DNA from: a virus
Length of the DNA: 60,513 nt
IMG/VR virus record: IMGVR_UViG_3300041973_000006
Span: 1 to 60,513 of that record
Reading direction: 5' to 3' (one strand)
In this document: piece by piece, positions 1 through 60,513 of the stretch
Layout: each line of letters begins with the position of its first letter
Position numbering within the stretch: the first letter of the stretch is position 1
Program-made: the position numbers and the translations under genes
The notes under the pieces: generated by a model
What the model was told of the DNA's origin: nothing
Databases searched by the model: none
Seen by the model: the letters and a program-made list of their open reading frames with translations, nothing else

Positions 1-59
1 GCCCCCCCCCGCCCCCCGGCCCCCCCCCCCCCCCACGCAACAGTCGAGCAGCGATGGAA
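1..59. repeat. Left contig end: C-rich run plus terminal 12-mer
   Basis: Positions 1-34 are almost pure C and are probably a sequencing or assembly artefact or an unreadable G/C homopolymer. Positions 39-50 read AACAGTCGAGCA, and the same 12-mer recurs at 60483-60494 next to an 18-G run; both are followed a few bases later by ATGGAA. The match suggests that the two contig ends are the same place, read with errors. Confidence 0.6.
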
Positions 60-413
60 CTGCACGCCGAGCTCTCCGCCCATCGACTCGAAGTCGTCCT
101 TATTCCTGCGCCCGACCCGCGCCACCGCAACCACAAGGTCCGCTGCGTGCAGGACCAGAACCCGCGCTGGTACCAGTCTCTTTGCGACCGGCACCAGTCC
201 TCGCGCCGCCGCCGCTCTTTCAAGTCGGACACCAGGATCAGGCGGGAGCACACGCTCCGAGCGCTCGAACGAATCGCGGGCGGCGACACGCGAGGCTCAT
301 ACGCCGAGAGGCTCGCCCCTTACGTCGAGGCGAAGGTTAAGGAGCTACGAGGATGCAGCGGGAAGCGCAAGCCGCCAGCGCTGGAGACATGGGCATGGTT
401 AGCTGCGACCTGA
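54..413 (+). CDS. Small basic protein of unknown function
   Basis: A 119-residue reading frame starts 20 bases after the low-complexity end, so an N-terminal truncation cannot be excluded. The product is rich in Arg and His with two cysteines (CVQDQ, LCDRH) and no recognisable domain. Its last 61 bases overlap the start of the RNase H-like gene, which has its own ribosome binding site (AAGGAG) inside this frame; the final 20 residues may therefore be an out-of-frame tail. Not identified. Confidence 0.5.
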   Translation: MELHAELSAHRLEVVLIPAPDPRHRNHKVRCVQDQNPRWYQSLCDRHQSSRRRRSFKSDTRIRREHTLRALERIAGGDTRGSYAERLAPYVEAKVKELRGCSGKRKPPALETWAWLAAT

Positions 414-1943: not shown

Positions 1944-2291
1944 TTGCACAGACCAATACCTAACGGCCACCGCGGCGCCATCGCCACCCTCCTGATCGCC
2001 CCGCGCACGTGGAGCTACTACATCTGCGGGGCTTGCCTGAGGGAGCTGTACTTCACATACGCGGGCGAGTCCTGCCCGCACTGCGACAGCACGGACCTCT
2101 GGTACGACGAAGGGGGCCTGCCGGGCGAGCGCGGCGGCCTCAGGAAAGAGTTTCGAGCCGAAGCCCACTCTACCCCTGCGCTCGACGTGAGCGCGGCCAG
2201 ACCGGCAAACGGTAACGGGGGAAGGCGGCGAAGTGGGAAGCGGCCCCGAAGGAATCGGGGAGGCGGGCGAGAGAGGAGCGTGCCGGCGTGA
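1944..2291 (+). CDS. Zinc-ribbon protein
   Basis: The 115-residue product starts at TTG (1944) behind GGAGGAG. Residues about 28-52 hold a CGACLREL...SCPHC pair, the two knuckles of a zinc ribbon. The C-terminal third is Arg/Gly-rich and low in complexity, suggesting nucleic-acid binding or a disordered tail. No family is recognised. It lies in the run of small early genes between the regulator and the initiator gene. Confidence 0.55.
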   Translation: MHRPIPNGHRGAIATLLIAPRTWSYYICGACLRELYFTYAGESCPHCDSTDLWYDEGGLPGERGGLRKEFRAEAHSTPALDVSAARPANGNGGRRRSGKRPRRNRGGGRERSVPA

Positions 2292-2990: not shown

Positions 2991-4070
2991 ATGTCTAATG
3001 AAACCGGTTCTTTGCCCGGCCCTAAAAAGCGTAAGGATGCCACATTCATCCTTAACAGCTTTCAGACGCCTAATGATTACGTCGACCAGTTCATGTACCT
3101 GCTGACCGGCGACGAGTGGAAGGTCCTCTCATACACCGTACGCCGCATCTTCGGGTTTCATGAGCGGGAAGACTGTGTCAGCCTCACGCAGTATCAATTC
3201 GGCATCGCCTCTGAGGACGGCGCTCGCCTGGACTTCGGCACCGGCCTCTCCCGTCCCACGATCGTCAAGGCGCTTGCCTACCTGATTAAGGTCAACCTCA
3301 TCATCCTCGTCGCCCCTAACGACCCTCGCGTTGATGAAGGAGCCCGTTACGCGCTTCAGCTCGACGCCTCCAAGGTTGACATGGCGGAGCTGCTCAGGCG
3401 CGCCGAGGAGCGCCGTCAGATCAATCTCAACCGTACGGAGAAGGCCCGTCTGGCCTCTCCTCGAAGTGGCAAAAGACACACACACACAGACCTCTCCCGC
3501 TTATCGGACTCCGGTAAGTCCCACTTACCGGGCTCGGCCCCTACTGCGGTAAGTCCCACTTACCAGTCTCGGTCAGTCCCACTTACCAATGGCGGTAAGT
3601 CCCACTTACACACAAAAATCAGTAAGAAATCCAGGGGAAATCCAGACACACACACACCGCACCCGCCGCGCGCCCCGGAGCACCCGCCTCCACAGGGTGA
3701 TGTGTGCGTGTGTGAATCAATCGAACATGACGACTATGTTGACTTCGCCAAGTCCAAGTCGAGCTTCACGGAGCCGGAGGCGTGGGCTGCTGTCCACTGG
3801 CCTATTCGGCACAAGGAGCACCACATCTGTAAGCAGGTCCACGAGTGGAAACAGCGGCGACAGGCTGCTCTCGACGGCAAGGTCGAGGAAAAGCCGAAGC
3901 GCACGCCCTTCCATGCCGCTGCGCAGGCCGTCAACTCCGTCGCGCAGGTGCCCGGCTACGACGTGCGGGGCTTCATCGAGCAGTTGACCGATGTGGACGA
4001 GGAGACAAGAGCACGGCTCTTCGAACAGTTCTGTCCTCCGGAGCCGGCCAGCGCCGCGCGTGCGCCGTGA
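2991..4070 (+). CDS. Winged-helix replication initiator-like protein
   Basis: The 359-residue product has an N-terminal winged-helix region (about residues 20-115: YVDQFMYLLTGDEWKVLSYT, SLTQYQFGIA, LSRPTIVKALAYLIKVNLI) of the kind seen in plasmid Rep and phage replication O-like initiators. The middle (about 160-250) is low in complexity because the DNA there carries four palindromic iterons and CA runs; it translates as GKSHLPG and SVPLTN-type repeats. The C-terminal domain (about 250-355) is helical. Initiator genes that contain their own origin are known from lambda O. I infer that this gene binds the iterons at 3513-3610. Confidence 0.65.
   Translation: MSNETGSLPGPKKRKDATFILNSFQTPNDYVDQFMYLLTGDEWKVLSYTVRRIFGFHEREDCVSLTQYQFGIASEDGARLDFGTGLSRPTIVKALAYLIKVNLIILVAPNDPRVDEGARYALQLDASKVDMAELLRRAEERRQINLNRTEKARLASPRSGKRHTHTDLSRLSDSGKSHLPGSAPTAVSPTYQSRSVPLTNGGKSHLHTKISKKSRGNPDTHTPHPPRAPEHPPPQGDVCVCESIEHDDYVDFAKSKSSFTEPEAWAAVHWPIRHKEHHICKQVHEWKQRRQAALDGKVEEKPKRTPFHAAAQAVNSVAQVPGYDVRGFIEQLTDVDEETRARLFEQFCPPEPASAARAP
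3475..3715. repeat. Four 17-bp iterons flanked by CA/GT runs: candidate origin
   Basis: GGTAAGTCCCACTTACC occurs at 3513-3529 and 3548-3564, GGTCAGTCCCACTTACC at 3571-3587 and GGTAAGTCCCACTTACA at 3594-3610. Each unit is itself an inverted repeat (GTAAGT-CCC-ACTTAC); the last three are spaced exactly 23 bp. The block is bordered by CA runs near 3475-3489 and 3645-3658 and a GTGTGCGTGTGTG stretch near 3702. All lie inside the initiator-like gene, a layout typical of a phage origin. Confidence 0.7.
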
Positions 4071-12394: not shown

Positions 12395-12973
12395 GTGGCT
12401 GACGAGAAGACCCGGAACGGGGAACAGAAAAAGCCTCTCAGACTCACGGAGAAGCAGAAGCGCTTCGTCGTCGAGATGCTGGCCTGCCACGAGCCGCCGC
12501 TGGAGGTTGTGAAAGCTCTCAAGCTCGAATTCAAGCTGGACGTCACCCGGCAGGCAGTCGAGCGTTACGACCCAACCACCGCGGCCGGGCAGGAGTTGAG
12601 CGAGAAGCTGAAGGATTACTTCTGGGAGGTGCGTCAGAAGTGGGATGAGCAGGCCGAACAGGACCTGATCGGCAATATCAAGCACCGCCTCGGCGTCTAC
12701 CGGTCGATCCTGAGGCGTGCCGTCAACCGGGGTGATGATCGCCTCGCTCTCGAAGTGATGAAACAGACCGCTCAGGATAAGGGCGGCGCATTCACTAATC
12801 GGAGAGTGTTAGACGGTAAGGTGGAATTATCTACCGAGGAGCAGAAGCGTGAGTTGGCGGCAGCCATGCTGAAGAAGTTAGTGGCGGAGGGGAAGAGTAA
12901 AGTCGAGGCGCGGACCGAACTGATTAGGATGGGCGTAGATGAGCGGCACCTCCCAACCCTACAAGATAGTTGA
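12395..12973 (+). CDS. Terminase small subunit-like (DUF2280)
   Basis: The 192-residue product (GTG start) matches DUF2280: RLTEKQKRFVVEMLACHEPP, QAVERYDPTTAAGQELSEKL and a final GGAFTNRR. These proteins lie upstream of GpA-type large terminases and are thought to recognise phage DNA. The N-terminal third contains a helix-turn-helix-like unit. The gene overlaps the large subunit by 35 bases. Confidence 0.8.
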   Translation: MADEKTRNGEQKKPLRLTEKQKRFVVEMLACHEPPLEVVKALKLEFKLDVTRQAVERYDPTTAAGQELSEKLKDYFWEVRQKWDEQAEQDLIGNIKHRLGVYRSILRRAVNRGDDRLALEVMKQTAQDKGGAFTNRRVLDGKVELSTEEQKRELAAAMLKKLVAEGKSKVEARTELIRMGVDERHLPTLQDS

Positions 12974-14696
12974 GCGCGAACTCTTCGAGTACTTCGCACT
13001 CGGCGACGAAGGCTTCGCTCTGCCCGAGGACTTCAATACGCCTATTTGCGATTTGCCGCCTCTTGCCTGGGCCGAAGCTCACCGCCGGCTCGAAGGCCGC
13101 CAGTTCTCTCTCGACTATATACCCGAGCTTAACGAAGGCTACGAGCCGCTAAAGGACATCTACAACGATACACATCCCTTCATCGTCATCATGAAGCCTG
13201 CGCAGGTCGGTGTCTCGGAGCTGGCCATCTGCCGGGCTCTGCACGCGCTCGACGTCGGCGCACGCTTCTATAACACCCAGAGCGATGGTCTAAACGTCGG
13301 TTATCTCTTTCCAACGCAGGACGCGCTGCTCGACTTCACCAAAGAGCGCTTCGATGGTATCAAGGGCGAGACCGACTATCTGGGGGCGCTCTTCACGGAT
13401 GTGGACAACGCCAGGCTGAAGAAGGCCAGAAACAGCTACCTCTACCTGCGCGGGGCGTGGTCCACGAAGGCCGTGAAGTCTTTCAAGGCCGATCTCCTCA
13501 TCCTCGATGAGCGCGACGAGATGCTCTCGTCTGCCGTCGCGCTTGCCGAGAAGCGCCTGCGGCACAGTCGTATCAAGATGCAGTTTCGGCTCTCAACCCC
13601 GACGAAGCCGGGTAAGGGCATCCATGCCGATTATTTAAGGTCGGACCAGCGCGTCTGGGAGGTGAATTGCTCCGCCTGCGGTGAGTGGAACGAGCTCAAC
13701 TTCTTCCGGGACGTTAAATGCGACGGCGCCGATTACGAAGACTGGAAGCTCTGGGAGCCGGAGCGAGTCCACACGGCGGAGGTCGCCGTATGCTGTCCGT
13801 CATGCCACCACCCGCTCTGTGATGCCGACAGGTTCGGCCCCGGCCGGTGGGTGGCGCGCCAGCCGGAAGTCACCGCCATCCGCGGCTACCACGTCCCGGC
13901 ACTCTCCTTCCCGCGGGTCGACATCCGAAAGCTCTGCGTCACCGCTATCAGCGATGAGCCCCAACAGGTCCTCGAATTCTTCCGCTCGGACCTCGGCGTC
14001 CCGTACGAGCAGGAGGGGAGCAGCATCACCGAGACCATGCTCAAAAAGCTGAGCTCGGACCTACCCGGCGGCCGCCTACCCGAAGGCGTCAAGTGGCGCA
14101 AGGTCACGATGGGCGTGGACGTGGGCAAGCGCTTCCATTTCCGTATCTCAGGGACAGGTCCTGATAACAGGCGCTACGTTCTGAAGATGGGATGGGTCAG
14201 GGGCTGGGATGAACTCGACGCACTGATGGAAGAGTTCGGTGTGCGCCACTGCGTCATCGACAAGGACCCGGAGCTTTCGGCCTGTGAGGCGTGGGCGACA
14301 AAGCACAAGGGCAAGGTGACGCGCGCCCACTATCCGACCGGCGCGAACGCGTTAAAGGGTGTCCTCTTTGCCCCAGAGGCGGAGAAGATCGAAGGGCTCG
14401 TTCAGATCAACCGTACGATGGCGATGGATACCGTTTACAGCATTGTCGCGACGGGTAAAGAGGTCTGGCCGACGCAGATACACAATGATCCTGAAGTGAT
14501 TTCGCACATGACGGCGCCGACGCGCGTCATCGTCGAGAATGATGAAGGGCAGCCGCGCGCAACGTGGGTTCACACCAAGCGCGACGATTTATTTCACGCC
14601 TGCGTCTACGACCATATTGCGCTGGCCACTCTACCGAAGAAGCTGCCGGGAGTCGCTCTGGGCTTAGGTAGCGCAAGAGGATGGGGCTTCGACTGA
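12939..14696 (+). CDS. Terminase large subunit, GpA type
   Basis: The 585-residue protein powers DNA packaging and cuts the concatemer. The ATPase has a Walker-A-like KPAQVGVSE (residues 86-94) and Walker B LLILDERDE (186-194). A zinc finger follows (NCSACGEWNEL and CCPSCHHPL, about 247-290), as is usual for the GpA family. The C-terminal nuclease domain starts with TMGVDVGKRFHFRI and has CVIDKDPE. GpA enzymes are typical of lambda-like cos packaging, but the end type here is unknown. Confidence 0.9.
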   Translation: MSGTSQPYKIVERELFEYFALGDEGFALPEDFNTPICDLPPLAWAEAHRRLEGRQFSLDYIPELNEGYEPLKDIYNDTHPFIVIMKPAQVGVSELAICRALHALDVGARFYNTQSDGLNVGYLFPTQDALLDFTKERFDGIKGETDYLGALFTDVDNARLKKARNSYLYLRGAWSTKAVKSFKADLLILDERDEMLSSAVALAEKRLRHSRIKMQFRLSTPTKPGKGIHADYLRSDQRVWEVNCSACGEWNELNFFRDVKCDGADYEDWKLWEPERVHTAEVAVCCPSCHHPLCDADRFGPGRWVARQPEVTAIRGYHVPALSFPRVDIRKLCVTAISDEPQQVLEFFRSDLGVPYEQEGSSITETMLKKLSSDLPGGRLPEGVKWRKVTMGVDVGKRFHFRISGTGPDNRRYVLKMGWVRGWDELDALMEEFGVRHCVIDKDPELSACEAWATKHKGKVTRAHYPTGANALKGVLFAPEAEKIEGLVQINRTMAMDTVYSIVATGKEVWPTQIHNDPEVISHMTAPTRVIVENDEGQPRATWVHTKRDDLFHACVYDHIALATLPKKLPGVALGLGSARGWGFD

Positions 14697-16258
14697 TGAG
14701 TAAAATAAACCCCCTTGGTCTGCTCGACTATGATGAGCAGCCGGCCGAGAGAAGCGGCGTCAACCCTCTCGGCCTCACGGTCTCAGAGCGTTCCTATACG
14801 TCTCACGGACCGCGAAAGCACAAGCCCGTCGAGGCCGAGCCCGTCACACCGCGCGCGGCGGAGGTCTCCACTACTACGCTGGGCCGATCCGTAGCCGGCG
14901 GCAGAATCTCCATCGACCGGCCGGATGATGCGTTCTTCGGTAATTCACTGGCCACGTTCGTCACCCAAAACTCCGAGGCAAATATATTTCGGTCCGAGAA
15001 GTTCGATGCGCGCGCCCTCGCGCGCATGCCGGTCTCCCGGCTGATGGAACTGCTCGCCGATAACTCCCCCGAGGTCTCCCGTGCTCTCTGGGATTTTCTG
15101 CTCTTCTGCAATCCCGGCTGGAAGGCGAAGGCTTTCAAACCCGGAACTGAGGAAGTCGACAAGCAGGCACAGGCGGCGCTCGACGAGTTCCTTTCCAATC
15201 TCCACGGCCCGTTCGCCGCACCTCACGTCATGCCGGCCGACGTGGTCATCGCATCGCTCTTCATGACGCTTTTCATGCGTGGGTGCGTGCTTGCCGAGCT
15301 CGTCCTCGACGAAGCCGGCCGGATGCCTCTGGAGATTGCCACTCCTGACCCCATTACGCTCCAGTTCCGGCGCGGCGCGGACCCGGCCAGAGGCAAGGTC
15401 TGGCTCGTCGGACAACAGCAGGGCTCCGACTTCGTCGTGCTCGACCGCCCGACGGTCTGCTACGTGCCGCTTCATCCTTTTCCTGGCTCGGCGCAAGGAA
15501 GGCCTATCGCCGCCTCCGCAATTTTCTCGGCGCTTTTCCTGATAGGGATGCTCTATGACCTGAAGCGTGTAGTGCAGCAGCAGGGGTACCCCCGGCTTGA
15601 CATCGCCATAGACGTAGAGAAGCTCAAGGACCTGCTTGAAGACGACGAGGCTTTCAGCAGCTTTGATAAGTTTAACGAAGTGGTGGACGAGATCACGTCT
15701 CAGGTGGCGAAGCATTACGCGAGTCTTCAAGCCGATGATGCTTACGTCCACACCACGGTGGTCAGTGTGGATATGCCTGTCGGCGCCGTCGATTCGCGGA
15801 GCCTCGGCGCGGTCGACGGTCTGCTGCGCGCGATTGAGCGAATGACTGTCAGGGCGCTGAAGTCGATGCCACTGCTCTTCGGTATCAACGAAGCAGTAGC
15901 TGAGACACACGCCAACCGCCAGTGGGAGATCCACGTCGCCGGCATCAAGTCGGTTCAGCACCTCGTTGAATTCGTCCTGGAGCGTCTTTGTGGGCTTGGC
16001 CTCCAGGCCCGCGGTATTGCCGCCATAGTTCGGTTCAGGTTCGCGGAGCTGCGGGCGGCGGAGATGCTACGTGACGCGCAGACCGAACAGACGAGAATCA
16101 ACAACGCGGTCAGGAAAAGAGACGAAGGCTTCATCACCCAGAACGAGGCATCGCAGGAGATCACCGGCAAGGATGCCGCTGCCGCTGGGCCCGTGCGAGA
16201 GACAAAGTCAGGCTCGGCCGGCGCCAACGTCGAGCCCGAGCCTGGAAGTAATCGCTAA
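14696..16258 (+). CDS. Portal protein (Mu gp29/DUF935-like)
   Basis: The 520-residue product is taken from ATG 14696, which overlaps the terminase stop; ATG 14681 is an alternative. Motifs such as DNSPEVSRALWDFLLFCNPG, FMTLFMRGCVLAELVLDEAG and GYPRLDIAID agree with phage portal proteins, and a long C-terminal helical stem (FAELRAAEMLRDAQTEQ) is seen. It forms the dodecameric DNA channel at one capsid vertex. The last 40 residues are disordered. Confidence 0.8.
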   Translation: MSKINPLGLLDYDEQPAERSGVNPLGLTVSERSYTSHGPRKHKPVEAEPVTPRAAEVSTTTLGRSVAGGRISIDRPDDAFFGNSLATFVTQNSEANIFRSEKFDARALARMPVSRLMELLADNSPEVSRALWDFLLFCNPGWKAKAFKPGTEEVDKQAQAALDEFLSNLHGPFAAPHVMPADVVIASLFMTLFMRGCVLAELVLDEAGRMPLEIATPDPITLQFRRGADPARGKVWLVGQQQGSDFVVLDRPTVCYVPLHPFPGSAQGRPIAASAIFSALFLIGMLYDLKRVVQQQGYPRLDIAIDVEKLKDLLEDDEAFSSFDKFNEVVDEITSQVAKHYASLQADDAYVHTTVVSVDMPVGAVDSRSLGAVDGLLRAIERMTVRALKSMPLLFGINEAVAETHANRQWEIHVAGIKSVQHLVEFVLERLCGLGLQARGIAAIVRFRFAELRAAEMLRDAQTEQTRINNAVRKRDEGFITQNEASQEITGKDAAAAGPVRETKSGSAGANVEPEPGSNR

Positions 16259-16606: not shown

Positions 16607-16789
16607 ATGAGCAAAGCCACAGCAACCTCTCGTTACTGTCCAAGCTGCCATCTGCGGGTAAGCACCGCGGCGACGAGCGTCTGTACTAACTGCGGCGCGC
16701 GGCTTTCTCAGCCTGATCCCCGCCGCGTCCGCGCGGAAGATCCGAGGCGCGGTAAGCCCGCCGCCAATCAGAGACGGAGGCCCTTGTGA
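16607..16789 (+). CDS. Zinc-ribbon microprotein
   Basis: A 60-residue product with a classic ribbon, YCPSCHLRV...VCTNCGARL (residues 10-32), and a very basic tail. It starts 7 bases after the hairpin and overlaps the protease start (GTGA). No clear ribosome binding site. Zinc ribbon plus basic tail suggests nucleic-acid binding. Confidence 0.5.
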   Translation: MSKATATSRYCPSCHLRVSTAATSVCTNCGARLSQPDPRRVRAEDPRRGKPAANQRRRPL

Positions 16790-18150
16790 GCGACACCGCG
16801 AATATGTTGTTTGCCCACCCGGCCGCCTGTTCCCAGCGTGCCACGACGACCGAACTGTTGGAGATCGCCCGGACTCGCCGCGCTTTGAACGCCGAGGTCT
16901 TCGAGAGGCACAAGCCGTTCTTCTGGACGGCTGAGATCTCCAGCGGCCGCCTCGACGCCTACTACACCCGAATGGCCGTCTCGACCCTCAAGAATTACGC
17001 GGCCGACGCGGAGGCGGGCGTGGCCTTTCAGAACAGCCATAGGACGCGCGAACTCAGCCTCGGTCGTTCTCTCACTGGCCAATTCATAGGCGGACAGGGC
17101 AACGGCATCGCGCGAGTCGTCGCAGACTTCTACACCGTCTCGGGCCTCCAGCTCGGCGAGGTTCCTACCGACCAGATCATCACCGGCATTGAGACCGGGA
17201 TTCTTTCCGACGTTTCCGTCGGCTTCTACGGCGGCCGCTTCGTCTGCTCCATCTGCGGGCGCGACATGCTTCGCGACTGGGACTGCTGGCACATCCCCGG
17301 CTGGGAGGAGGAGGTCGAAGGTGACGGTCAGGTCCGCAAGGTCATAGCGGAAGCGACCGTCGAGGATGCGCACCTCGCGGAAGTGAGCGTTGTCTATGAC
17401 GGGGCCACACCGGGCGCCGCGATTCTCAAGGCACAGTCCGAGGCCGAGTCCGGGCGAATCCGTCCCGAAGCGAAGCGCTTAATCGAACAGCGCTACCGCA
17501 TCAACCTGCCGGACAAGCGAGTCATCGTTCCCGGCCACAACAACGGAGAGAGGCAGATGTCACAGCGAAGGGACAATGACCCCGCCGCGCCGCCGACAAC
17601 CGACCCCACTGCACCGCCGCCCGCGGACCCGGCTCCGCAACCCACTCCGGACCCGGCTCCCGCGCCCGCTCCAAGCCCGGCGCCCAGCCCTGAGCCCGCT
17701 CCGGCGCCCGCCCCGGAACCGGCGCCCGCCCCGGAGCCGACACCCGCTCCCGTCGAGGGAGAGGTCATTCCGGTGGAGGAGGCTACCCGGCAACTGCCGG
17801 CAGTGCGCACGCTGCTCGTCGCTGCCGGAGTCCCCGATACCGGGTCTCTCTTGAATCGCATCAACGCGCTCGTCGAGCGCGCGCGTGACGGCGCGGCCTA
17901 CCGCACCAGTCTGATTGAAGAGGCCCTCCAGGAGGGCGTGCGCGCCTTAGGCGCCAGCTTCAATCAGGAAGCATACCGCCGCACGCTGGAGGCGTCCTCG
18001 ATAGACGTCATCAAGCTGATGCGCGATGACTGGGCGCGCGCCGCGAAGAGCAACTTCGCGGGCGGTCGTCAAACGGTCGAGGGTGATCGTGGCGTCGAGG
18101 CTGAGGCGGCGCCGGTCGAGGTTCATGAGTCCGCCTTCGCGGGGGCGTAA
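16786..18150 (+). CDS. Prohead protease-scaffold fusion
   Basis: The 454-residue product joins an HK97-type prohead protease (about residues 35-215; AFQNSHRTRELSLGRSL holds the likely His, and VEDAHLAEVSVVYDGA the Ser region) to a scaffold. Inside the protease is a zinc-like insertion, CSICGRDMLRDWDCWHIPG. Residues 258-325 are a Pro/Ala repeat linker and the rest is helical scaffold. A second start lies at ATG 17557 (Met258) behind GGAGAGAGG, so a free scaffold of about 197 residues may be made from the same gene, as in lambda C/Nu3. Confidence 0.75.
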   Translation: MSDTANMLFAHPAACSQRATTTELLEIARTRRALNAEVFERHKPFFWTAEISSGRLDAYYTRMAVSTLKNYAADAEAGVAFQNSHRTRELSLGRSLTGQFIGGQGNGIARVVADFYTVSGLQLGEVPTDQIITGIETGILSDVSVGFYGGRFVCSICGRDMLRDWDCWHIPGWEEEVEGDGQVRKVIAEATVEDAHLAEVSVVYDGATPGAAILKAQSEAESGRIRPEAKRLIEQRYRINLPDKRVIVPGHNNGERQMSQRRDNDPAAPPTTDPTAPPPADPAPQPTPDPAPAPAPSPAPSPEPAPAPAPEPAPAPEPTPAPVEGEVIPVEEATRQLPAVRTLLVAAGVPDTGSLLNRINALVERARDGAAYRTSLIEEALQEGVRALGASFNQEAYRRTLEASSIDVIKLMRDDWARAAKSNFAGGRQTVEGDRGVEAEAAPVEVHESAFAGA

Positions 18151-18721: not shown

Positions 18722-19954
18722 ATGACCAGACGACGCTACCAACTCGCAAGCACGACCCCCGAGGGGCGCCCGCAGGAGCTGCTCCGTGCCATGTCGGCCG
18801 ACCGCTATTCCGAGGCCTATGACAACGGGATGAGCCTCTCGGCTTATCTTGAGACGCTCGACCCTTCCAGAGACCACCCGGGCGGCCTCGACGCCTTCCA
18901 GCGGCTCCTGCGGGTCGCCGGAATCCGCACGCAGACCATCTCGGAGATGGGCGTCGTGGCCGACGAGTTCGGCGCCATCAGCGAGGGGCCGGACTATCTG
19001 CGCGCGCTCGCGCCCGAGCTCGTCGCCCGCATGTGGCGGCGCGCCGTGACCGGCAGGGACGCGTCCACGCGTGCCCTCAGCACGAGCGCCGACCAGCCGA
19101 GCCAACTCCTCAACCCCACGGTGACGGCCGAGCAGGTCCGGGGCCAGCAGATCGCGCCCGCCATCCCCATCTCCAGTCTCGTCGCGCTGCGGTCCGGTAT
19201 CAACAGCGGCGCCTACGAGGCCTTCTATCTGGAGAACGAGACCGAAGAGCTGCGCATGAAGCGCGTCGTCGAGGGCACCGAGGTTCCGAAGGCGAAGCTG
19301 CGCGCCGGCCGTCACACGATCCGGCTGAAGAAGTTCGGGCGCGCCATCGAGATTACCTACGAGCAGCTCCGGCGCATGAAGATAGACCTTCTGGCGCTCC
19401 ACATCGCGCGCATCGCGGTTCAGGCCGAGGCCGACAAGATTCCCGCCATCTCGGACGTCATCGTCAACGGGGACGGCAATCCGAACACCGCCGCGCTGGT
19501 CTACGACCTGACGGACCTCGACCCGGCCGCCAACGTCGGCGATCTCACCTTCAAGGCGTGGATCAGGTTCCTGATGAAGTTCAAGAACCCGTACATGCTG
19601 ACGGCCACCCTCGGCACGACCGAGAGCATTCACGACATGCTCACGATGGACGTCGGCACGGCCAACTTCCTCTTCATGCAGCTCGCCAAGCAGCTTGGCT
19701 TCGGCGGCTTCCGCCCGCTCAATCAGGGGCTCGACGAGTCGGTCGGCGTCGGCTGGGACGACGAGCTGCCCGCCTCCAAGCTCATCTCCATCGATGCCAG
19801 ATTCGCGGTCGAGCAGGTCTACGAAATCGGCGGCAATATCACCGAGGTTCAGCGCTGGGCCAACCGGCAGACGCAGGAACTCGTGATGACCGAGGTCGAG
19901 GGCTTCGCGAAGTTCGAGGCCGAGGCTTCGAAGGTCCTGAACCTCGCGGCGTAA
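18722..19954 (+). CDS. Major capsid protein, HK97 fold
   Basis: The 410-residue product has a helical N-terminal part (about 110 residues) that may act as a delta domain removed by the protease, then the HK97 core: IPISSLVALRSGINSG, VVEGTEVPKAKLRAGRH (E-loop-like), ITYEQLRRMKIDLLALHIAR and VIVNGDGNPNTAALVYDL. The C-terminal SKLISIDARFAVEQVYEIGG and EVEGFAKFEAEASKVLNL complete the fold. Strong AAGGAG upstream fits high expression. Confidence 0.85.
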   Translation: MTRRRYQLASTTPEGRPQELLRAMSADRYSEAYDNGMSLSAYLETLDPSRDHPGGLDAFQRLLRVAGIRTQTISEMGVVADEFGAISEGPDYLRALAPELVARMWRRAVTGRDASTRALSTSADQPSQLLNPTVTAEQVRGQQIAPAIPISSLVALRSGINSGAYEAFYLENETEELRMKRVVEGTEVPKAKLRAGRHTIRLKKFGRAIEITYEQLRRMKIDLLALHIARIAVQAEADKIPAISDVIVNGDGNPNTAALVYDLTDLDPAANVGDLTFKAWIRFLMKFKNPYMLTATLGTTESIHDMLTMDVGTANFLFMQLAKQLGFGGFRPLNQGLDESVGVGWDDELPASKLISIDARFAVEQVYEIGGNITEVQRWANRQTQELVMTEVEGFAKFEAEASKVLNLAA

Positions 19955-21018: not shown

Positions 21019-21423
21019 GTGACCATAAGGCGCTCGGACTTCTTTCGCGGCAGACGCGGCCCCGCCGGGCCTCTTGTCTTTCTGCGGTCGAAGGGGCAAG
21101 GCGAGTACGAGAAGCTCTTTGAGGTCGCGGACGGATGGGCGGCCTGGCCGGAGCGGCAGATAGACGGTGTCGACGACCGCGTGCCGGTCATGCAAATCGA
21201 GATCGAAGAGAGGGCGGACCCGGCGGCCGAGGCGCAGTTGGCCGCGGTTCTCAAGACCCCTCTTGAAGCAGAGGCCGCGGAGGCAGGCGCAACCGCCGAT
21301 TCGGTAGCCATCGAGGGAACGGTTTACGTGATAGAGCGGGAACACACAGCCGTCCCTACCCTGGAGCCCCGGCGCTGGAAGCTGCGGGCCTACAGCTCGG
21401 AAGGGCGGTGGCAAGGTGAGTAG
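21019..21423 (+). CDS. Head-tail joining candidate
   Basis: The GTG-started 134-residue product begins MTIRRSDFFRGRRGPAGPLV and contains beta-like RVPVMQIEIEER and GTVYVIEREHTAVPTLEP. It overlaps the next gene by 8 bases. Function inferred only from its place in the head-completion cluster. Confidence 0.45.
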   Translation: MTIRRSDFFRGRRGPAGPLVFLRSKGQGEYEKLFEVADGWAAWPERQIDGVDDRVPVMQIEIEERADPAAEAQLAAVLKTPLEAEAAEAGATADSVAIEGTVYVIEREHTAVPTLEPRRWKLRAYSSEGRWQGE

Positions 21424-22787: not shown

Positions 22788-24362
22788 ATGCCATCGTTTA
22801 TCACCGGCGCAGCTGTGCCGGGAGTCCACGCGAGCGTTAATACGTCTCTTATCGGCGCGCCCGTGCAGCCCGGCGCATCGGACGCGCTTTTCTCCGTCAC
22901 CTACTCGGCATGGGGTCCGGTCAACGTGGCTAAGACCGTCACTGGCATCGCGGATCTGACTCGCCAATTCGGCGGCTTAAACGCTAACTCCCACGGCATC
23001 AACTCCCTGCACAACTTCTTCCGGCAGGGCGGCCGTCGCGCGTGGGTCGTACGCGTTGTCGGCGCCGCCGCCGCTGTAGCCACGGCCACTCTAAACGACC
23101 GCGCTGGCGTTCCCGTCGCGACCGTTCGGGTTGATGCCAGGTACCCCTCGTCCACGGTGGACGTGCGGCGCAAGGTCGAGACCGGCTCGACGGCGAACAC
23201 CGTCAAGCTCACTTTCCGCAGCGTGAAGCTGAACGTGATCGAGGTCTTCGATAACTTCAAGCTGACCTTCACGCAGCAGGAAATCGACGATATCAATGCC
23301 GGGCGGTCGGTCCTGACCAGGATTCAGGATGTTAACGACCGCTCGCAGCTCGTGAAGCTGACGGACCTCGCCAGCGCGACCGCAGCGCCGAACAACCTGC
23401 CGGCGCTGGCGGCCGAGGCCGTGCTTGCCGGCGGCAACGATGACTTCGCGGGCATCACCGACGCGACCTTCATCGGCGCCGACAACGGCCTGGAGAAGAC
23501 CGGCCTTCATGTCTTCAACAGCGAGGAGTTCGGCACGGGACAGGTGGCGCTGCACGGCGTGACCACGCAGGCCGCGCACGCGGCGTTGATCGCGCACGCG
23601 GAGACCTATAAGCGGTTCGCCCTCCCCGACCCGGCCTTCGGCGACGACAGGGATGAGGTCGTCGCCGCGCGCAAGCTACACGGCTCGCCCTACGCGGCCA
23701 TCTACTGGCCGTGGGTCGAGCAACTGGATCTCGAAGGCACCGGCGTCCGGAAGTTCTACCCGCCGTCGGGCTTCGTCGCCGGCATCTTCGCCCGCGCCGA
23801 AAACGAGGTCGGCGTCCACAAGGCGCCCGCGAACTACCTCGTGCGGGGAGTGCTCGACGTGGAGCGTGCGCCGAACGGCTCGCCGCAGGTGGACGAGGCC
23901 ACGCGCGCCTTCCTCAACAGGAACGAAGTGAACGTTATCGCCCCGTTGCAGGAGCAGGGCATCAAGGTCTACGGCGCGCGGGTGATGATGTCGTTCGGCC
24001 GCGTCACGGCCGTCCACCAGCAGAGGATCCTCAACCGCATCTACTACGACCTGAAGCCGGCTTATCAGGAACTGCCCTTCGCCACCTACGACGCCGAGGG
24101 GCGCGTCTTCCGGGTGGCCGCCTCCGTCTCGGAACAGTATCTGCGGTTGCTGTACCGCTCGGGCGCGCTGACGAGCACGACGGGCAGGGAGGAGGACGCC
24201 TTCAAGGTCATCTGCGACTCGTCGAACAATCCGCCGGAGACCATTGACCAGAAGCAGCTCTACGTGGACGTCTACGTCCACCTCGTGGAGATGGTCGAGA
24301 TGGTCCTCCTGAGCATCAACAACGTGCCGTTGGCGACGAGCCTCGCGGCGTTTCAGGAGTGA
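22788..24362 (+). CDS. Contractile tail sheath protein
   Basis: The 524-residue protein starts MPSFITGAAVPGVHASVNTS behind GGAGGG. A typical N-terminus (FSVTYSAWGPVNVAKTVTGI, GGLNANSHGINSLHNFFRQG) is followed by a variable domain and the conserved C-terminal sheath domain (YAAIYWPWVEQLD, YPPSGFVAGIFARAENEVGV, KAPANYLVRGV, YVDVYVHLVEMVEMVLLSIN). Subunits form the contractile cylinder around the tube. Confidence 0.9.
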   Translation: MPSFITGAAVPGVHASVNTSLIGAPVQPGASDALFSVTYSAWGPVNVAKTVTGIADLTRQFGGLNANSHGINSLHNFFRQGGRRAWVVRVVGAAAAVATATLNDRAGVPVATVRVDARYPSSTVDVRRKVETGSTANTVKLTFRSVKLNVIEVFDNFKLTFTQQEIDDINAGRSVLTRIQDVNDRSQLVKLTDLASATAAPNNLPALAAEAVLAGGNDDFAGITDATFIGADNGLEKTGLHVFNSEEFGTGQVALHGVTTQAAHAALIAHAETYKRFALPDPAFGDDRDEVVAARKLHGSPYAAIYWPWVEQLDLEGTGVRKFYPPSGFVAGIFARAENEVGVHKAPANYLVRGVLDVERAPNGSPQVDEATRAFLNRNEVNVIAPLQEQGIKVYGARVMMSFGRVTAVHQQRILNRIYYDLKPAYQELPFATYDAEGRVFRVAASVSEQYLRLLYRSGALTSTTGREEDAFKVICDSSNNPPETIDQKQLYVDVYVHLVEMVEMVLLSINNVPLATSLAAFQE

Positions 24363-34219: not shown

Positions 34220-34540
34220 ATGAATGATGCGATTCAGAAAAATTCGGAGCAAGCAGCGCCGGCAGCCGTGGAGGTCAATTCCCTCGTGCAGATGCTGGAA
34301 GGCCGCGTGCGCGAGCGCGCGGCTGCGCTCGAAGTCCTTGGCCAGCGCCGACACGTGATCGCGGGCACAATCTCGGACCTTAAAGACGATTTGGCCGACG
34401 TTGAAACGAGGATCGCGCAGACGAGCGGGGAGCTACAAGAGGCGCAGACCTTATTACGTCTCGTGCGCGAGGCCAAGCCTGCGCCGGCCGAAGCGCTGAC
34501 TGCGAGCCGGAGCCGAAAGGGAGAGGGCAAGCATGGCTGA
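34220..34540 (+). CDS. Coiled-coil baseplate-region protein
   Basis: The 106-residue product is mostly coiled coil (residues 22-88: VQMLEGRVRERAAALEVLGQ, ISDLKDDLADVETRIAQTSG) with a basic end. It overlaps gpJ-like by 8 bases. Perhaps a small wedge accessory; no family seen. Confidence 0.55.
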   Translation: MNDAIQKNSEQAAPAAVEVNSLVQMLEGRVRERAAALEVLGQRRHVIAGTISDLKDDLADVETRIAQTSGELQEAQTLLRLVREAKPAPAEALTASRSRKGEGKHG

Positions 34541-35738
34541 GTTGGTGCCGCCACCGGACCTGGATATCAGAGACGAGGAGCAGATCGCCGCGCAGGCCAT
34601 TGGCTTCACTTGCGCGCCGCAGACACTTCCGCGCATTGATTTTCAGATCGGCGTCATGCGTGAGCTGCGCGCACGGGTCGAGGCCGGGATGGACCCGCCA
34701 CCAGTCTGCCCTGAACTCACGAATGCCAATCCCGATAAACCCCACGTTGTGCTTCTGGAAGTGATGTCATGGCTAATTGCCATCATCGCTCGACGCATCA
34801 ATCGTCTTCCCGTCAAGGTGCAGGTGGAGTTCGCCCGCCTCTTCGGCGTCGAGTTAAGAGAAGCAACGCTCGCGGAGACTACTCTACGCTTCACTGTGGC
34901 ACCACCCGATGGCGAGGGGGCTGTGATTCCTGTCGACACGACAGTTAGAAGCGCAGACGGCGCATACACATTCCTGACCATTGAGGAGCTTGTGCTGGCC
35001 CCGGGAGTAAACGTCGGCGACGTGGCCGCTCGGCGAAACGTGGCTGGCGCAACGACGCTCGCGCCTGACGTATTGACAGTCCTCACCGACCCGGTTGCAT
35101 GGGTCGAGTCCGTGACTAATCCTGAGGCTGTCGAGTCGGGTACTGACGCCGAGACAGTTGAATCGGCTCTGGCGCGCGCGCGGCGTTACCAGCGAAGGGG
35201 CGAGCGGTTGGTCTCAGCACAAGATTTGGAGGAGGCAATCCTCGACGACGTACTCCTCGGTAACGGCATCGTGAGAGCCTTCCCTTTTATCATGGACGGA
35301 GTTTGGGATGAGTTGACGTCCGGGCACACGACCATTGTCGTGATGACGCGGGCAGGCGCGCCTGTGAGCGACGCTGCCAAGCAGCAAATCGCTACAACCA
35401 TGCAGCAGGCGGTTGGGACGCAGTTCATCTACGTCAAGGATCCGGAGTTCGTCGAGTTCAATATCTCGGCGGCCGTGCGCCTGGAGGGCCTCACTCCTCA
35501 GGATGCAATCATAGCGGGTGTTAAGAAGAGGCTCGAAGCGTTCTACGCACCGACGGCACAAAACTTTGGCAAGTCCGCTTTCCAGTCAGACATCATCGGG
35601 CTTATCGAAGGTAGCCCCGGGGTGGAGCGGATTGAGCGGCAGCCGGGCGGCGAGTTGTTGGCCGCGCCGGCGGATGACGTGGAGGTCGCTCCCTATCAAA
35701 TGCCTCGGCTCGGAACGGTGACACTCAATGTCATTTAG
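34533..35738 (+). CDS. Baseplate wedge protein (gpJ-like)
   Basis: The 401-residue product belongs to the Baseplate_J group: VQVEFARLFGVELREATLAE, TLRFTVAPPDGEGAVIPVDT, the conserved ESALARARRYQRRGERLVSA and EEAILDDVLLGNGIVRAFPF, and QSDIIGLIEGSPGVERIE. It forms the wedge ring with gpW and gpI. Confidence 0.85.
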   Translation: MAELVPPPDLDIRDEEQIAAQAIGFTCAPQTLPRIDFQIGVMRELRARVEAGMDPPPVCPELTNANPDKPHVVLLEVMSWLIAIIARRINRLPVKVQVEFARLFGVELREATLAETTLRFTVAPPDGEGAVIPVDTTVRSADGAYTFLTIEELVLAPGVNVGDVAARRNVAGATTLAPDVLTVLTDPVAWVESVTNPEAVESGTDAETVESALARARRYQRRGERLVSAQDLEEAILDDVLLGNGIVRAFPFIMDGVWDELTSGHTTIVVMTRAGAPVSDAAKQQIATTMQQAVGTQFIYVKDPEFVEFNISAAVRLEGLTPQDAIIAGVKKRLEAFYAPTAQNFGKSAFQSDIIGLIEGSPGVERIERQPGGELLAAPADDVEVAPYQMPRLGTVTLNVI

Positions 35739-39557: not shown

Positions 39558-40361
39558 ATGCTCCCTGAAACTCTCGTCACTCCGCCCTTCTCCATCAACC
39601 CGGATCCGAGTCTGCTGCACCTGACGCCCGGCCTTGAGGCCGCACTTCATAAGACGCGCTACGTGATTGAGCGCCGGCAGGGGCTGACGGCTATCCTCGG
39701 CGATGTGGGTCTCGGAAAATCTACCGTACTCAGGTACCTCTACCAGAGCTACGCCTCGCGTGACGATGCGTCGGTCGCCTTTATCCATACTCCGACGTTC
39801 AAGTCGGAGTTCGCCTTCCTGAAGGCGATCTGCTCTGAGTTCGGCCTGCCGGTCAGGCCCTCCCAGCAGCGGCAGGAATCGGAGTTGAATGACTTTCTGA
39901 TCTCGGAATATTCCGCTAACAGGCTCGTCGTCGTCTTCGTGGACGAGGCGCAGAAGCTGCCTGGCGCGCAGCTCGAACTCGTCCGCACGCTCCTCAATTT
40001 CGAGACGGGAAAGGTGAAGCTCATCCAGATCGTGCTTGCGGCGCAATTGGAGATTCGGCAGAAGCTCGCCGACCCGTCGAAAAAGGCGATCCGCTCAAGA
40101 ATCTTCGCCCCTTCCCTGCTGGAGCCGCTCACGCTTTCCGAGACGCAGGAGATGATCGAGTACCGCTGCCGGCGGTCCGGGATCGAGAATCCGTTTTCAC
40201 CGGATGCGGTTGAAGCTGTCTACCGATTGACCGGCGGCGTGCCGCGCGAGGTGCTGAAGACCTGCGCGATCGCCGTCGAGCTAACGGAGGCGCAAGGGCT
40301 GGAGCGTGTCCCGCCAGATCTAGTGGATAGCCTGCACGCGGAGGCAGTCTATGCGGAGTGA
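39558..40361 (+). CDS. AAA ATPase, ExeA/TniB-MuB-like
   Basis: The 267-residue product has Walker A GDVGLGKST (48-56), Walker B VVVFVDEAQ (124-132) and a C-terminal helical lid (TGGVPREVLKTCAIAVELTE), the ExeA/TniB/MuB group of AAA+ ATPases. Relatives load transposases or helicases on DNA. No transposase was found in the window and the next gene (11 bases overlap) looks like an initiator, so I favour a helicase-loader or replication role. Confidence 0.75.
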   Translation: MLPETLVTPPFSINPDPSLLHLTPGLEAALHKTRYVIERRQGLTAILGDVGLGKSTVLRYLYQSYASRDDASVAFIHTPTFKSEFAFLKAICSEFGLPVRPSQQRQESELNDFLISEYSANRLVVVFVDEAQKLPGAQLELVRTLLNFETGKVKLIQIVLAAQLEIRQKLADPSKKAIRSRIFAPSLLEPLTLSETQEMIEYRCRRSGIENPFSPDAVEAVYRLTGGVPREVLKTCAIAVELTEAQGLERVPPDLVDSLHAEAVYAE

Positions 40362-41388
40362 TCCCAACAAAAAGATCGTCAGCTTTAAGGATCTTTACGC
40401 CGCGCAACGTGCCCGCGAGGGGGCGAATTCTTCGCCTGAAACGGAGTCGAAGACGGGGCCGCCCACGCCTGTAGCGGCCTCGCCGCACCCCTATGTCCCT
40501 CTGCCCCCCTCTGATGGACAGACCCCCTCTGGGGGACATAGGGGTGCGGCGCCCGCAAGAGACTTCAACCGCAGAGCCAATTCGATTGAGCGCGACGTCC
40601 TGCCAGCCGGCAAATTCCCGGGCGCAAGCAAAAAGGTCTATGACGCGCTTTACCTGCGCACGCGCGGAGCCGTCAAGCCAACACGAGAGATTACGGCTAC
40701 CAAACGTCAGCTCGCTGAATGGTCGGGGGTCAAGAACAGAAAAACGATAGATGGCCACCTTCGCTATCTTGAAACCTGTGGCCTGCTGGTCCGGCAGTGG
40801 GACCTAGGAAGCAACGAGGGCTACACTTTCGAAGTGCTTCTGCCTGAAGAGACCTCTCTGGTGGACAGGGGGACAGAGGGGGACAGAGGGGCAGAGGGGA
40901 CAGACCAGAAAAGGGACAGAGGGACAGACCAGAAAAGGGACAGAGGGGGACAGAGTCAAACCTCTGATTTACAAGACACTTCCGACCTTCCTAAGACTTT
41001 TAAGACTAATAGAGAGAAAGATGATGATGAGCCTGCGGCGCGGCTGCTCGCGGCGCTGGCTCGGGCGGCCAGGGAGATCACCGGCAGGGAGCCGTCGTCG
41101 GCCGAAGCCGAGCGCTGGCAGGAACTGGGCGAGCTACTGGCCACCGAACTCAAGATCGCCGCCGGCCGCACCACCGTCAGTAGTGTCCCGGCCTTCCTGA
41201 CCGAGCACCTGCGGCGCCGCCTCTGGAAGAAAGAGAAGCGCCAGATTGAGGCCGAGCGCGCGGAGGCGCCGAAAGACGCCGTACCGCCCGTGGATGCCTC
41301 GCAGTGCCCGGATTGCTTCGGCACGGGGATGTGGTACCCAGAAGGCTATGACAAGGGGGTCGCTAAGTGCCGCCACGATCGACTGTGA
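40351..41388 (+). CDS. Initiator/primosome-like protein with internal repeats
   Basis: The 345-residue product has a disordered N-terminus, a winged-helix domain (about 85-165: FPGASKKVYDALYLRTRGAV, TATKRQLAEWSGVKNRKTID, LRYLETCGLLVRQWDLGSNE), a repetitive DRGTEGDRG/GTDQKRDRG stretch, a helical domain and a final CPDCFGTGMWYPEGYDKGVA-C zinc motif as in some DnaC/DnaT-associated proteins. It overlaps the ATPase gene, so the pair may start replication. The repeats reflect GGACAG units in the DNA. Confidence 0.6.
   Translation: MRSDPNKKIVSFKDLYAAQRAREGANSSPETESKTGPPTPVAASPHPYVPLPPSDGQTPSGGHRGAAPARDFNRRANSIERDVLPAGKFPGASKKVYDALYLRTRGAVKPTREITATKRQLAEWSGVKNRKTIDGHLRYLETCGLLVRQWDLGSNEGYTFEVLLPEETSLVDRGTEGDRGAEGTDQKRDRGTDQKRDRGGQSQTSDLQDTSDLPKTFKTNREKDDDEPAARLLAALARAAREITGREPSSAEAERWQELGELLATELKIAAGRTTVSSVPAFLTEHLRRRLWKKEKRQIEAERAEAPKDAVPPVDASQCPDCFGTGMWYPEGYDKGVAKCRHDRL
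40489..40953. repeat. GGACAG repeats and an 11-bp inverted repeat: second candidate origin
   Basis: Eight GGACAG units lie at 40863, 40871, 40881, 40898, 40914, 40922, 40938 and 40948, partly as a tandem copy of GACAGACCAGAAAAGG. Upstream, CCCCTATGTCC (near 40489-40499) and GGACATAGGGG (near 40543-40553) form an inverted repeat with further CCCCTCTG units between. All are inside the initiator-like gene. Confidence 0.55.
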
Positions 41389-54609: not shown

Positions 54610-54641
54610 TGTCTATATCCTCCTTCAAGGCAATATGGATT

Positions 54642-54667
54642 CTATATAGAAACTATATAGTTGTCAA
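54642..54667 (-). promoter_or_regulatory. Leftward promoter overlapped by CTATATAG operator
   Basis: On the minus strand: TTGACA (54667-54662), a 17-base spacer ACTATATAGTTTCTATA and TAGAAT (54644-54639). The spacer carries two CTATATAG palindromes. The 26 bases from TTGACA onward are identical, in opposite direction, to 57435-57460. It would drive the whole PRTRC operon and be shut off by the operator-binding protein. A further TCTATATAGTT and a degenerate copy lie at 54721-54748; the gap up to 54944 otherwise holds only a doubtful minus-strand frame. Confidence 0.7.
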
Positions 54668-54944
54668 GATAAAAATATCCCTGCCCGCCGCAACAGGGGA
54701 AAGGAAATTAAGGCTTGCTTTCTATATAGTTACAATATAGAATCTATACAGCCTCTTAGGGGATTAAATCCATAATCTTGGACGCAATATCCAGTTGAAT
54801 AAAATGTTAAATCCGTGTACTCTGCCGGGCACGCTTCAGGGCTCTCCGTGTCGCATCTTCGGCACTCCTGAATCCGCTCCCCAAGCACACGAATATCGGG
54901 CCGCCGAAAGGCAGCCTGCGTCAACTCAATTTATTGCGTTTAGG

Positions 54945-57691: not shown

Positions 57692-58209
57692 GGGTGCTGC
57701 CATGACCACCACCACCCCACCCTCCACCGAATTCGCGCGGGCGCCCCTCGCCCTGTAGTGAGTCTAGGTATGCACGATCACGCCCCTACACGGCCCCGTC
57801 TCAATCACCCCCGCCCAAACGGCAGGGGTGTGAGAATCGCCAAACGCGGGCTCCCGGATGTCTCCGAGAGCGAGGGGGTCGCGAATCACTCCGCAACCAA
57901 GAGCGCCGGCTCGTGCGCGTCGTCAGCCACGTCCGTGTGTATAACGCCAAATACCGGCATCTGCATGATGCCGAACGTCATTTCGCTGCTTTGAATTTGC
58001 ATGTGGATCCTCGGGGTGTGTCGCCCTCGCGCTATAGGGCAGCCGGCCAACGTCGGTGCTCCGGGGCGGGAGCGGGGAGGGGACGTTGCTTCGCGGCTTT
58101 GCGTCGGGGCGAGATGGTTGATCTTTGGCGTCGCCGGGACCGCGCGACGCCGGGGCTAAGGCGACGGATTCTACACTGCGGGGAGCAAGTTTGAAAAGGT
58201 TTCCAGGCC
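57692..58209. other. Gap without a certain gene
   Basis: The 518 bases hold a possible 38-residue leftward gene (57886-58002) and a very short rightward frame of 18 codons at 57702. The rest is G/C-rich and shows no convincing codon pattern. No terminator was recognised. Confidence 0.5.
57886..58002 (-). CDS. Possible 38-residue protein
   Basis: The frame MQIQSSEMTFGIMQMPVFGV continues IHTDVADDAHEPALLVAE and looks more protein-like than its surroundings; GAGG precedes the ATG. No known match. Could be a chance frame. Confidence 0.35.
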   Translation of the reverse strand: MQIQSSEMTFGIMQMPVFGVIHTDVADDAHEPALLVAE

Positions 58210-58650
58210 ATGAAAATCTATATCGCCAGTAGCTGGAAGAACGTCCACGCCGTCGAGATGCTGACTGCTCTTCTGCGCGAGCGCGGCCACGAAGTCCTGT
58301 CTTTCGTCGAGAACAACCACGGCGAGAATCCCAACTCGGCAGTAAACGAGCGGGCGGGCGAAAAGCCCGTGCCCTTCGATGAATGGTGCGCTTCGGCGGA
58401 CGGCCGCCGCTCTTTCGAGTACGACACGAGCGGCGCCACTCAGTCGGACCTCGTGATCTACGTCGGACCGTCGGGCACGGATGCGTGGGCAGAGGTCGGG
58501 GCGGCCTGGGCGAGCGGTCGAGCAGTGCTCGGTTTATGGGCTAAAGGCGAGCCGGTTGGCCTTATGCGCCGCATGGTCGAGTGGTTTGAAGACTACCGCG
58601 CGTTGCTCAAGGCCGTTGACGAATGTGCCCGCCCGCACGTGGCGGCATGA
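58210..58650 (+). CDS. Nucleoside 2-deoxyribosyltransferase-like protein
   Basis: The 146-residue product starts MKIYIASSWKNVHAVEMLTA and has RGHEVLSFVENNH, QSDLVIYVGPSGTDAWAEVG and AWASGRAVLGLWAKGEP, the usual elements of the deoxyribosyltransferase-like Rossmann-type fold (first strand, D-L-V strand and GxDxxxEvG nucleotide site). Members cleave nucleosides or nucleotides; the phage role may be in nucleotide salvage or signalling. Confidence 0.7.
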   Translation: MKIYIASSWKNVHAVEMLTALLRERGHEVLSFVENNHGENPNSAVNERAGEKPVPFDEWCASADGRRSFEYDTSGATQSDLVIYVGPSGTDAWAEVGAAWASGRAVLGLWAKGEPVGLMRRMVEWFEDYRALLKAVDECARPHVAA

Positions 58651-58654
58651 ACGC

Positions 58655-59475
58655 AGTTCGGTTTCCGCGTCGCTAACGGCCGCACCTCCGGGCAGGCGGC
58701 CGGCCCGAGGGGGGCTCGCGGCGGCGACGCGGAAAACAGATTGAAAGCGTGCGGGGCTCCCCTGAGGTGAAACGTCCCCCGCACTACGGAAGGCACGGCC
58801 ACGCCATAAGCCCGTGCCTTCGCTCGCGGCGGGCGCGCTGGTCACTTCCGGGGTGCGCCCGCCGCTACCCATAACGTTTTAGCTCTTTCAGTCGAGGCCG
58901 GGGAGCGGCATTCAGAAGCCGGTTTCACCAAACCGGGGTAAGCCAGTTGAAAGAGACTGGCCCGTAGTACCAGAGGGGCCGCCATGCCGGGACGAGGCAA
59001 GCCCGGCACAAGTTTGGGGCGCGCGAGGGGCAGTTAAGTCAGCCAGCCGTCACAGAGGCCGACCTAGCCGAATTCAACGGACGACGTGCGGCGCTAGTCG
59101 GCGGGTAGCGTCCCCGAACTCAGTTCTTTGCAGTTTCAATTTCGAGCGGCGGTCAGGGGCACGCGCCCCGGCGCGGCGGAAGAGCAGAGGTTGCAGACAC
59201 TCCCCGGCCGCGTTCACCGCAACGACAAGCCAGTCCGCCGCTCGAATCACTTTCGCCGCTCACGTCGGGGGTCGTGAGCGGCCATTCGGGGCCGGGCCCT
59301 GACCCTCGGCGCGTATCGCACGCGTCTTCCTCCTGTATCACCCGGCCCCGCTTTTGAAATTACGCCGAGGCTCGCGCTCTCCCCGCAGGCGGGCCTCACT
59401 AGTGCGGCCGGACTCCCCGCCGGTCGCACGCGTCAGCGCCGGGAGAGAAGCGAGGGGGCCTCTCTCCCGGCGCCA
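58655..59475 (+). ncRNA. Candidate large structured noncoding RNA (about 820 nt)
   Basis: No convincing gene is seen, but perfect inverted repeats follow each other: 58662-58673/58724-58735 (12 bp), 58749-58756/58777-58784 (8), 58789-58798/58812-58821 (10), 58826-58836/58855-58865 (11), 58883-58890/58948-58955 (8) enclosing 58919-58925/58930-58936 (7), 58985-58991/59002-59008 (7), 59141-59152/59235-59246 (12), 59255-59263/59274-59282 (9), 59287-59296/59341-59350 (10, then CTTTT) and 59436-59448/59461-59473 (13). GGTCAGGG near 59151 could also pair with CCCTGACC near 59297. The strand is inferred from the CTTTT after the 59287 stem. Size and phage location recall GOLLD and ROOL RNAs, but no motif of either is claimed. 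Confidence 0.6.
58867..58884. promoter_or_regulatory. AACGTT palindrome, site 10 (imperfect)
   Basis: ACCCATAACGTTTTAGCT, placed inside the structured region between two of its helices. It may be a regulator site or a helix of the RNA. Confidence 0.55.
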
Positions 59476-59493
59476 GCTGGAAATGGAGCGGCA

Positions 59494-59709
59494 ATGCCAA
59501 AGATGTCAGTAGAAGAGGACAGTAAAAGAGCGCATGTAGAAGCTGAGGGCGTCACTCTTACCGATGGGACTAAAAACGACATTCTCATTGAGACTCCAAC
59601 CCAGTTCTTCTCGCTGAGAGAACTCCTTCAGCCATTCATGCATAACGCGGCGGGCGTGAAGCTTAGTCTGCGCGTCGAGCTCATGCCGCCCGCTTCGCCG
59701 AAGAAATGA
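59494..59709 (+). CDS. Small protein, unknown
   Basis: The 71-residue product begins MPKMSVEEDSKRAHVEAEGV and has FFSLRELLQPFMHNAAGVKL and SLRVELMPPAS. GGAG precedes the ATG, directly after the last hairpin of the structured region. Not recognised. Confidence 0.5.
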   Translation: MPKMSVEEDSKRAHVEAEGVTLTDGTKNDILIETPTQFFSLRELLQPFMHNAAGVKLSLRVELMPPASPKK

Positions 59710-60411: not shown

Positions 60412-60460
60412 GGTGGCCTCTTAACTATCACGTGAGGATGCCTGAAGGCACGATAAATGC

Positions 60461-60513
60461 GGGGGGGGGGGGGGGGGGAATTAACAGTCGAGCACCCATG
60501 GAAATGAACCCCC
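60461..60513. repeat. Right contig end: G18 run plus terminal 12-mer
   Basis: 18 G at 60461-60478 are followed by AATT and AACAGTCGAGCA (60483-60494), the 12-mer also at 39-50; ATGGAA follows in both. This suggests the contig closes on itself, with an unreadable homopolymer at the junction. Confidence 0.6.

Follow-up and report, generated by a model that had tools for sequence, protein, structure and literature searches.

A candidate gene for a large structured RNA with a covarying core in the early region of a contractile-tailed phage

Large phage RNAs and the genomic setting of the region

Few families of large structured RNA have been described in phages at the sequence level, among which GOLLD (RF02032), often found near a phage tRNA island, forms a homo-oligomeric RNA cage; to our knowledge, both GOLLD and ROOL (RF03087) are still without a known function. 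The conserved part of GOLLD is its 3' region, and ROOL, from phages and prophages, is an RNA of ~600 nt that contains pseudoknots and has no known protein partner (PMC12286853). The noncoding region described here would, if expressed, resemble GOLLD in being phage-encoded, ~800 nt long, rich in stems, furnished with complementary loops and of unknown function, as well as in having one conserved part and a variable remainder. It differs from GOLLD by the lack of a covariance-model match and of a tRNA island, by the internal position of its conserved part and by a 3' domain present in only one of the two phages compared below. With ROOL it shares the character of a large phage/prophage RNA with pseudoknots (candidates in our case), and it departs from it in sequence, in the missing model match and in the missing tRNA island. 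By analogy, the parallel with both (large, phage-borne, with loop contacts; PMC12286853) is one of kind and not of family.

The stretch of DNA analysed as a whole (hereafter the window) is 60,513 bases long, comes from an IMG/VR virus record and belongs to a contractile-tailed phage, with the following landmarks:

2991-4070: replication-O-like protein
12939-14696: terminase
14681-16258: portal
18722-19954: major capsid
22788-24362: tail sheath
34533-35738: baseplate
58210..58650, + strand: upstream gene, nucleoside 2-deoxyribosyltransferase-like (PHROG 12607, E 3e-14; 26 viral relatives)
58651..59493, + strand: whole noncoding structured region, the proposed RNA gene (helix excess, MFE z, no coding signal)
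59494..59709, + strand: downstream 71-aa orphan ORF (no relatives found)

A second replication-O-like protein is encoded at 40351-41388 and also matches sister contigs. At both window ends (1-60 and 60460-60513), AACAGTCGAGCA..ATGGAA follows a homopolymer run of C/G, on account of which the genome is probably circular or permuted, with overlapping record ends; the structured region would therefore lie upstream of the early/replication genes at the window start.

The original prediction had likened the location of the region to that of GOLLD and ROOL and proposed a covariance search with both models. This comparison did not hold: ARAGORN found no tRNA or tmRNA in the 60.5-kb window or in the contig of its sister phage (L079), and the GOLLD, ROOL and HEARO models, searched by name, gave no match at E up to 10 (control genomes were silent in the ROOL search, and ROOL was equally absent from the general Rfam scans). 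No Rfam family reached its gathering threshold in the window, and the matches returned by permissive scans of both phages (c-di-GMP-I, c-di-GMP-II, Pospi_RY and MIR7510) lay far below cut-off and were rejected.

Stem excess and layout of the region

The reading of the region as noncoding and packed with perfect inverted repeats was borne out, as six-frame codon scoring detected no coding frame, no long ORF spans the region, and the stems that had been listed (including the one enclosing 82 bases) are present. Counted with loops of up to 100 nt and against 100 dinucleotide shuffles, the region (GC ~68%) holds 11 perfect stems of at least 8 bp (shuffle mean 2.65, maximum 8), 7 of at least 9 bp (mean 0.78, maximum 5) and 7 of at least 10 bp (mean 0.28, maximum 2); when the window was divided into 142 half-overlapping tiles, the one with most stems of at least 10 bp overlapped the gap 58651-59493. 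The shuffled control for folding pointed the same way on either strand (MFE z -3.85 for + and -4.50 for -, 100 dinucleotide shuffles), against a genome-wide average of -0.33 for 160-nt windows. Two parts account for this stability, one on the 5' side (58652-58894, z -3.82) and one on the 3' side (59126-59480, z -4.40), and the middle, which contains the conserved core, has an ordinary fold energy (z -0.63). The helices and associated elements are:

58662-58673/58724-58735, + strand: P1, 12 bp (5' domain, z -3.82)
58677-58683/58696-58702, + strand: P1a, hairpin inside P1, loop ACCTCCGGGCAG (58684-58695)
58739-58747/58885-58893, + strand: P0, 9 bp with one U-G, predicted (MFE/MEA) to close P2, P3 and P4
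58749..58784 (58749/58777), + strand: P2, hairpin, 8 bp, loop 58757-58776
58789..58821 (58789/58812), + strand: P3, hairpin, 10 bp
58826..58865 (58826/58855), + strand: P4, hairpin, 11 bp
58895..59010, + strand: conserved core (homologue L079:434-551; covariance model R1), with the invariant letters CATTCAGAAG, a CACC loop, GTAGTA and a ACGAGGCAAG loop
58905-58909/58978-58982, + strand: Pc, core helix
58919-58925/58930-58936, + strand: P6, core helix
58942-58947/58956-58961, + strand: P7, core helix
58986-58991/59002-59007, + strand: P8, core helix
59011-59019/59112-59120, + strand: P9, 9 bp with one U-G, AGTTTGGGG/CCCCGAACT, enclosing 92 nt
59141..59246 (59141/59235), + strand: P10, 12 bp enclosing 82 nt (3' domain, z -4.40; absent from L079)
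59255..59282 (59255/59273), + strand: P11, hairpin, 10 bp, 8-nt loop
59287-59296/59341-59350, + strand: P12, 10 bp
59304-59311/59363-59370, + strand: stem crossing P12, 8 bp, perfect complementarity
59402..59429 (59402/59420), + strand: P13, hairpin, 10 bp, with an internal G-U (A-C on the - strand)
59436..59473 (59436/59461), + strand: P14, hairpin, 13 bp, ~20 nt before the next start codon and followed by no T run

Fold energy does not favour the + strand. We assign the RNA to it since both genes flanking the region in the window and the gene downstream in L079 are so oriented, and since its helices contain internal G-U pairs (9 on +, 6 on -), three of which (59015/59116, 58741/58891 and 59407/59424) become A-C on the opposite strand; the G-U excess lends modest support. 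The CTTTT after one stem, singled out in the original prediction, is not a terminator, and the scan recognised neither a promoter nor a terminator-like site on the + strand.

Several tertiary contacts may be read from the letters. The loops of P1a and P2 are complementary (by eye, 10 of 12 pairs form, and 0.3% of loop shuffles score as high) and possibly form a kissing loop, and the P7 loop matches 58884-58891 (0.08% of shuffles, for a pairing picked by eye), a pairing that is not obvious in L079. P12 and the 8-bp stem that crosses it form a possible H-type pseudoknot, and a further candidate, GGTCAGGG/CCCTGACC, would pair 59151-59158 with 59297-59304, sharing two bases with the 12-bp stem; both this candidate and the crossing stems (59287/59341 and 59304/59363) are part of the 3' domain, which is missing from L079. 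Within the core, a candidate sarcin-ricin-like AGUA/GAA pairing was considered.

A core shared with a sister phage

A search with the replication-protein alignment led to the contig L079 (IMGVR_UViG_3300034026_000010), from a sister phage whose terminase is ~56-68% identical to that of the window. This contig (G038, L079/L090) and G035 (L044/L055-L056), both from sample 3300034026, carry two halves of one gene (homologue: window 16786-18150), which makes it very likely that they are two pieces of one sister phage; the G035 capsid is 89% identical. Positions 426-552 of L079 match window positions 58887-59008 with 78% identity (E 5e-20), inside a stretch (1-682) that is noncoding throughout and reaches the contig end, so that its noncoding length is at least 680 nt. 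It stands directly upstream of replication-side genes and ends ~30 nt before the first early ORF.

The alignment of the 116-nt shared core (two sequences, 121 columns) places 24 pairs in Pc, P6, P7 and P8, all of them standard in both phages (48/48 cells) and none broken. Six of these pairs (two in Pc, three in P7 and one in P8) differ by two-sided compensatory changes, none by a change on one side only, and as only two sequences are compared each counts as a single event. When the partners were slid by 1-3 columns, 27-51% of positions paired with 0-1 two-sided changes, and 11/500 column shuffles reached the same covariation score. Furthermore, RNAalifold predicted the same 24 pairs with the alignment alone as input. 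As the stems of the relative have changed letters in matching pairs, we consider the fold of the phage RNA real and its structure well supported; compensatory change in a homologue had been named beforehand as the sign to look for in a giant structured RNA. This evidence falls in a different place from the one foreseen, for it is the core (58895-59010), built of short stems (5-7 bp), that covaries, whereas the long perfect stems on which the original prediction was based form the 5' and 3' domains, do not belong to the conserved part and, in the 3' domain, are absent from L079.

Outside the core, correspondence is one of position. Where the window has P9, L079 has a 10-bp helix (AGCGCTGCGG/CCGCAGCGCT, enclosing 81 nt) of different letters, and a 10-bp hairpin of other sequence (368-377/409-418) takes the place of P4, just 5' of the core in both phages. 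A tRNA-like reading of the L079 P9 (T-arm-like GCCGG...CCGGC, weak BLAST matches) was not supported by ARAGORN. Moreover, parts of the core recur in order as three short stretches at L079 146-221 (146-161 resembling 470-485, 201-221 resembling 491-511, and GACGAGG after them), which may be the decayed remains of a second core module within the sister RNA.

The two phages are thus far the only known members of the proposed family. The phage and plasmid collections contained no close DNA relatives of the region, the loci with relatives of the neighbour genes (26 for the deoxyribosyltransferase, 8 for a 113-aa protein) showed no trace of the element, and model R1 matched only these two places in 300 kb searched directly and only the L079 contig among 46 virus records. 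Scanning for the P7 pattern with its stems left free returned 13 chance matches with unpaired flanks, and other hairpin-rich tiles in the kin proved to be repeats inside or overlapping coding sequence. Genome-contig scans with the capsid and replication proteins found no host.

Interpretation of the locus

The region is noncoding, is folded far beyond chance and shares with L079 a core (Pc-P6-P7-P8) maintained through compensatory changes. With moderate confidence we read it as an RNA gene of the phage whose large structured product, made from the + strand of the early/replication region, belongs to a family outside Rfam. We infer that such an RNA would be transcribed together with the flanking + strand genes and kept or cut out as a stable molecule bounded by the strong hairpins P1 and P14, and that it would have a partner and possibly oligomerise. 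The invariant single-stranded letters (CATTCAGAAG, CACC, GTAGTA and ACGAGGCAAG) may provide a binding surface for protein or RNA, and the variable 5' and 3' domains may serve as a scaffold, possibly tied by loop-loop contacts.

The strongest competing explanation, possible and yet clearly less likely, is that of a long leader or intergenic control element that acts in cis on the early operon (by antitermination, attenuation or control of translation). It would suit the setting among consecutive + strand early genes (11 nt from the deoxyribosyltransferase stop to the first stem and ~20 nt before the next start codon), the position of the L079 element shortly before its first early ORF and the failure to find a separate promoter or terminator. 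Against it, no riboswitch family reached its cut-off, and the region is much longer than known phage leaders. Most directly, the two phages have different genes right after the element, the 71-aa orphan ORF in the window and, in L079, a homologue of window 1944-2291 (~3 kb past the element, if the window ends join). As the adjacent gene differs while the core persists, we favour an RNA that probably acts in trans, a role that we argue from gene order alone.

Two further readings are each improbable. Under the first, the hairpins would act in single-stranded DNA and not in RNA, for example as part of a replication or packaging origin. Proximity to replication genes, equally good folding of both strands and the fact that compensatory changes would preserve DNA hairpins too are all compatible with it; it is opposed by conservation that lies mostly in unpaired letters and short stems, by several helices that need + strand G-U pairs (as RNA allows) and by the lack of tandem initiator-binding repeats in the region.

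The second, which we rate as low as the first, would derive the region from a group II intron or from another RNA-guided or mobile-element RNA. The core contains CCGGGGAG, CAGAAG and TAGTA in the order that they have in domain III of group IIC introns (RF01998-type), real introns (L093 and L092) carry these words upstream of ltrA, and the triple arose in 0/2000 shuffles of the region, in a comparison picked after the fact that we retain as no more than a lead. The Rfam model group-II-D1D4-2 returned a weak intron match (E 3.7-7.3) below significance, whereas D1D4-1, D1D4-3 and RF01998 gave none and domain I motifs are lacking. Moreover, domain V/VI (RF00029, a model that matches a known intron) matched neither the window nor L079 at E up to 5-10, and the intron-encoded reverse transcriptase (PF00078), an optional feature of such introns, is absent from the phage and its sister (G000, G038 and G035) in a search whose positive controls matched. 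As for HEARO/omega RNA (RF02033), the likeness is that of a structured guide-type RNA of mobile elements, set against the missing model match and an empty search for the IscB/IsrB-type RRXRR domain (PF14239), in which the control was silent as well. Finally, chance inverted repeats, which a GC of ~68% would make more frequent, are contradicted both by the shuffles (0.28 stems against the 7 seen) and by six compensatory pairs with none broken, and we give this reading hardly any weight.

Beyond the preferred reading of a large structured phage RNA, we tentatively raise a bolder and rather unlikely proposal, namely that giant ornate phage RNAs include a third class, which arose independently of GOLLD and ROOL, has no relation to either and is carried by high-GC contractile-tailed phages without tRNA islands. 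Its members would be organised as 5' domain, conserved core and variable 3' domain, and during infection loop-loop contacts would assemble them into a particle of RNA alone or of RNA and protein. A further family unrelated to the few known would imply that such RNAs arise repeatedly, and this one supplies a defined covarying core for search, probing and deletion. The case also illustrates that a reading of stems alone can find a real RNA gene and yet miss its conserved part.

Other features of these genomes were recorded alongside. The 518-nt gap upstream of the deoxyribosyltransferase gene (57692-58209), devoid of clear genes or unusual structure (z -0.25), may contain a promoter. An AT-rich cluster at 54628-54754, which separates leftward from rightward genes next to a TPR/S24 protein gene and in which CTATATAG-type repeats form an inverted repeat of 33 nt, looks like an operator or lysogeny switch. 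In G001 (L063), a 12-G tract near 26.0 kb lies inside a homologue of the first gene of the window (54-413), near which G/C runs are also found in the window itself, and may be either a variable tract or an artefact of sequencing. L063 also carries dense overlapping inverted repeats on GGTAAGT/ACTTACC at a replication-O-like gene (1067-1214, corresponding to G001 21067-21214), a possible iteron-type origin.
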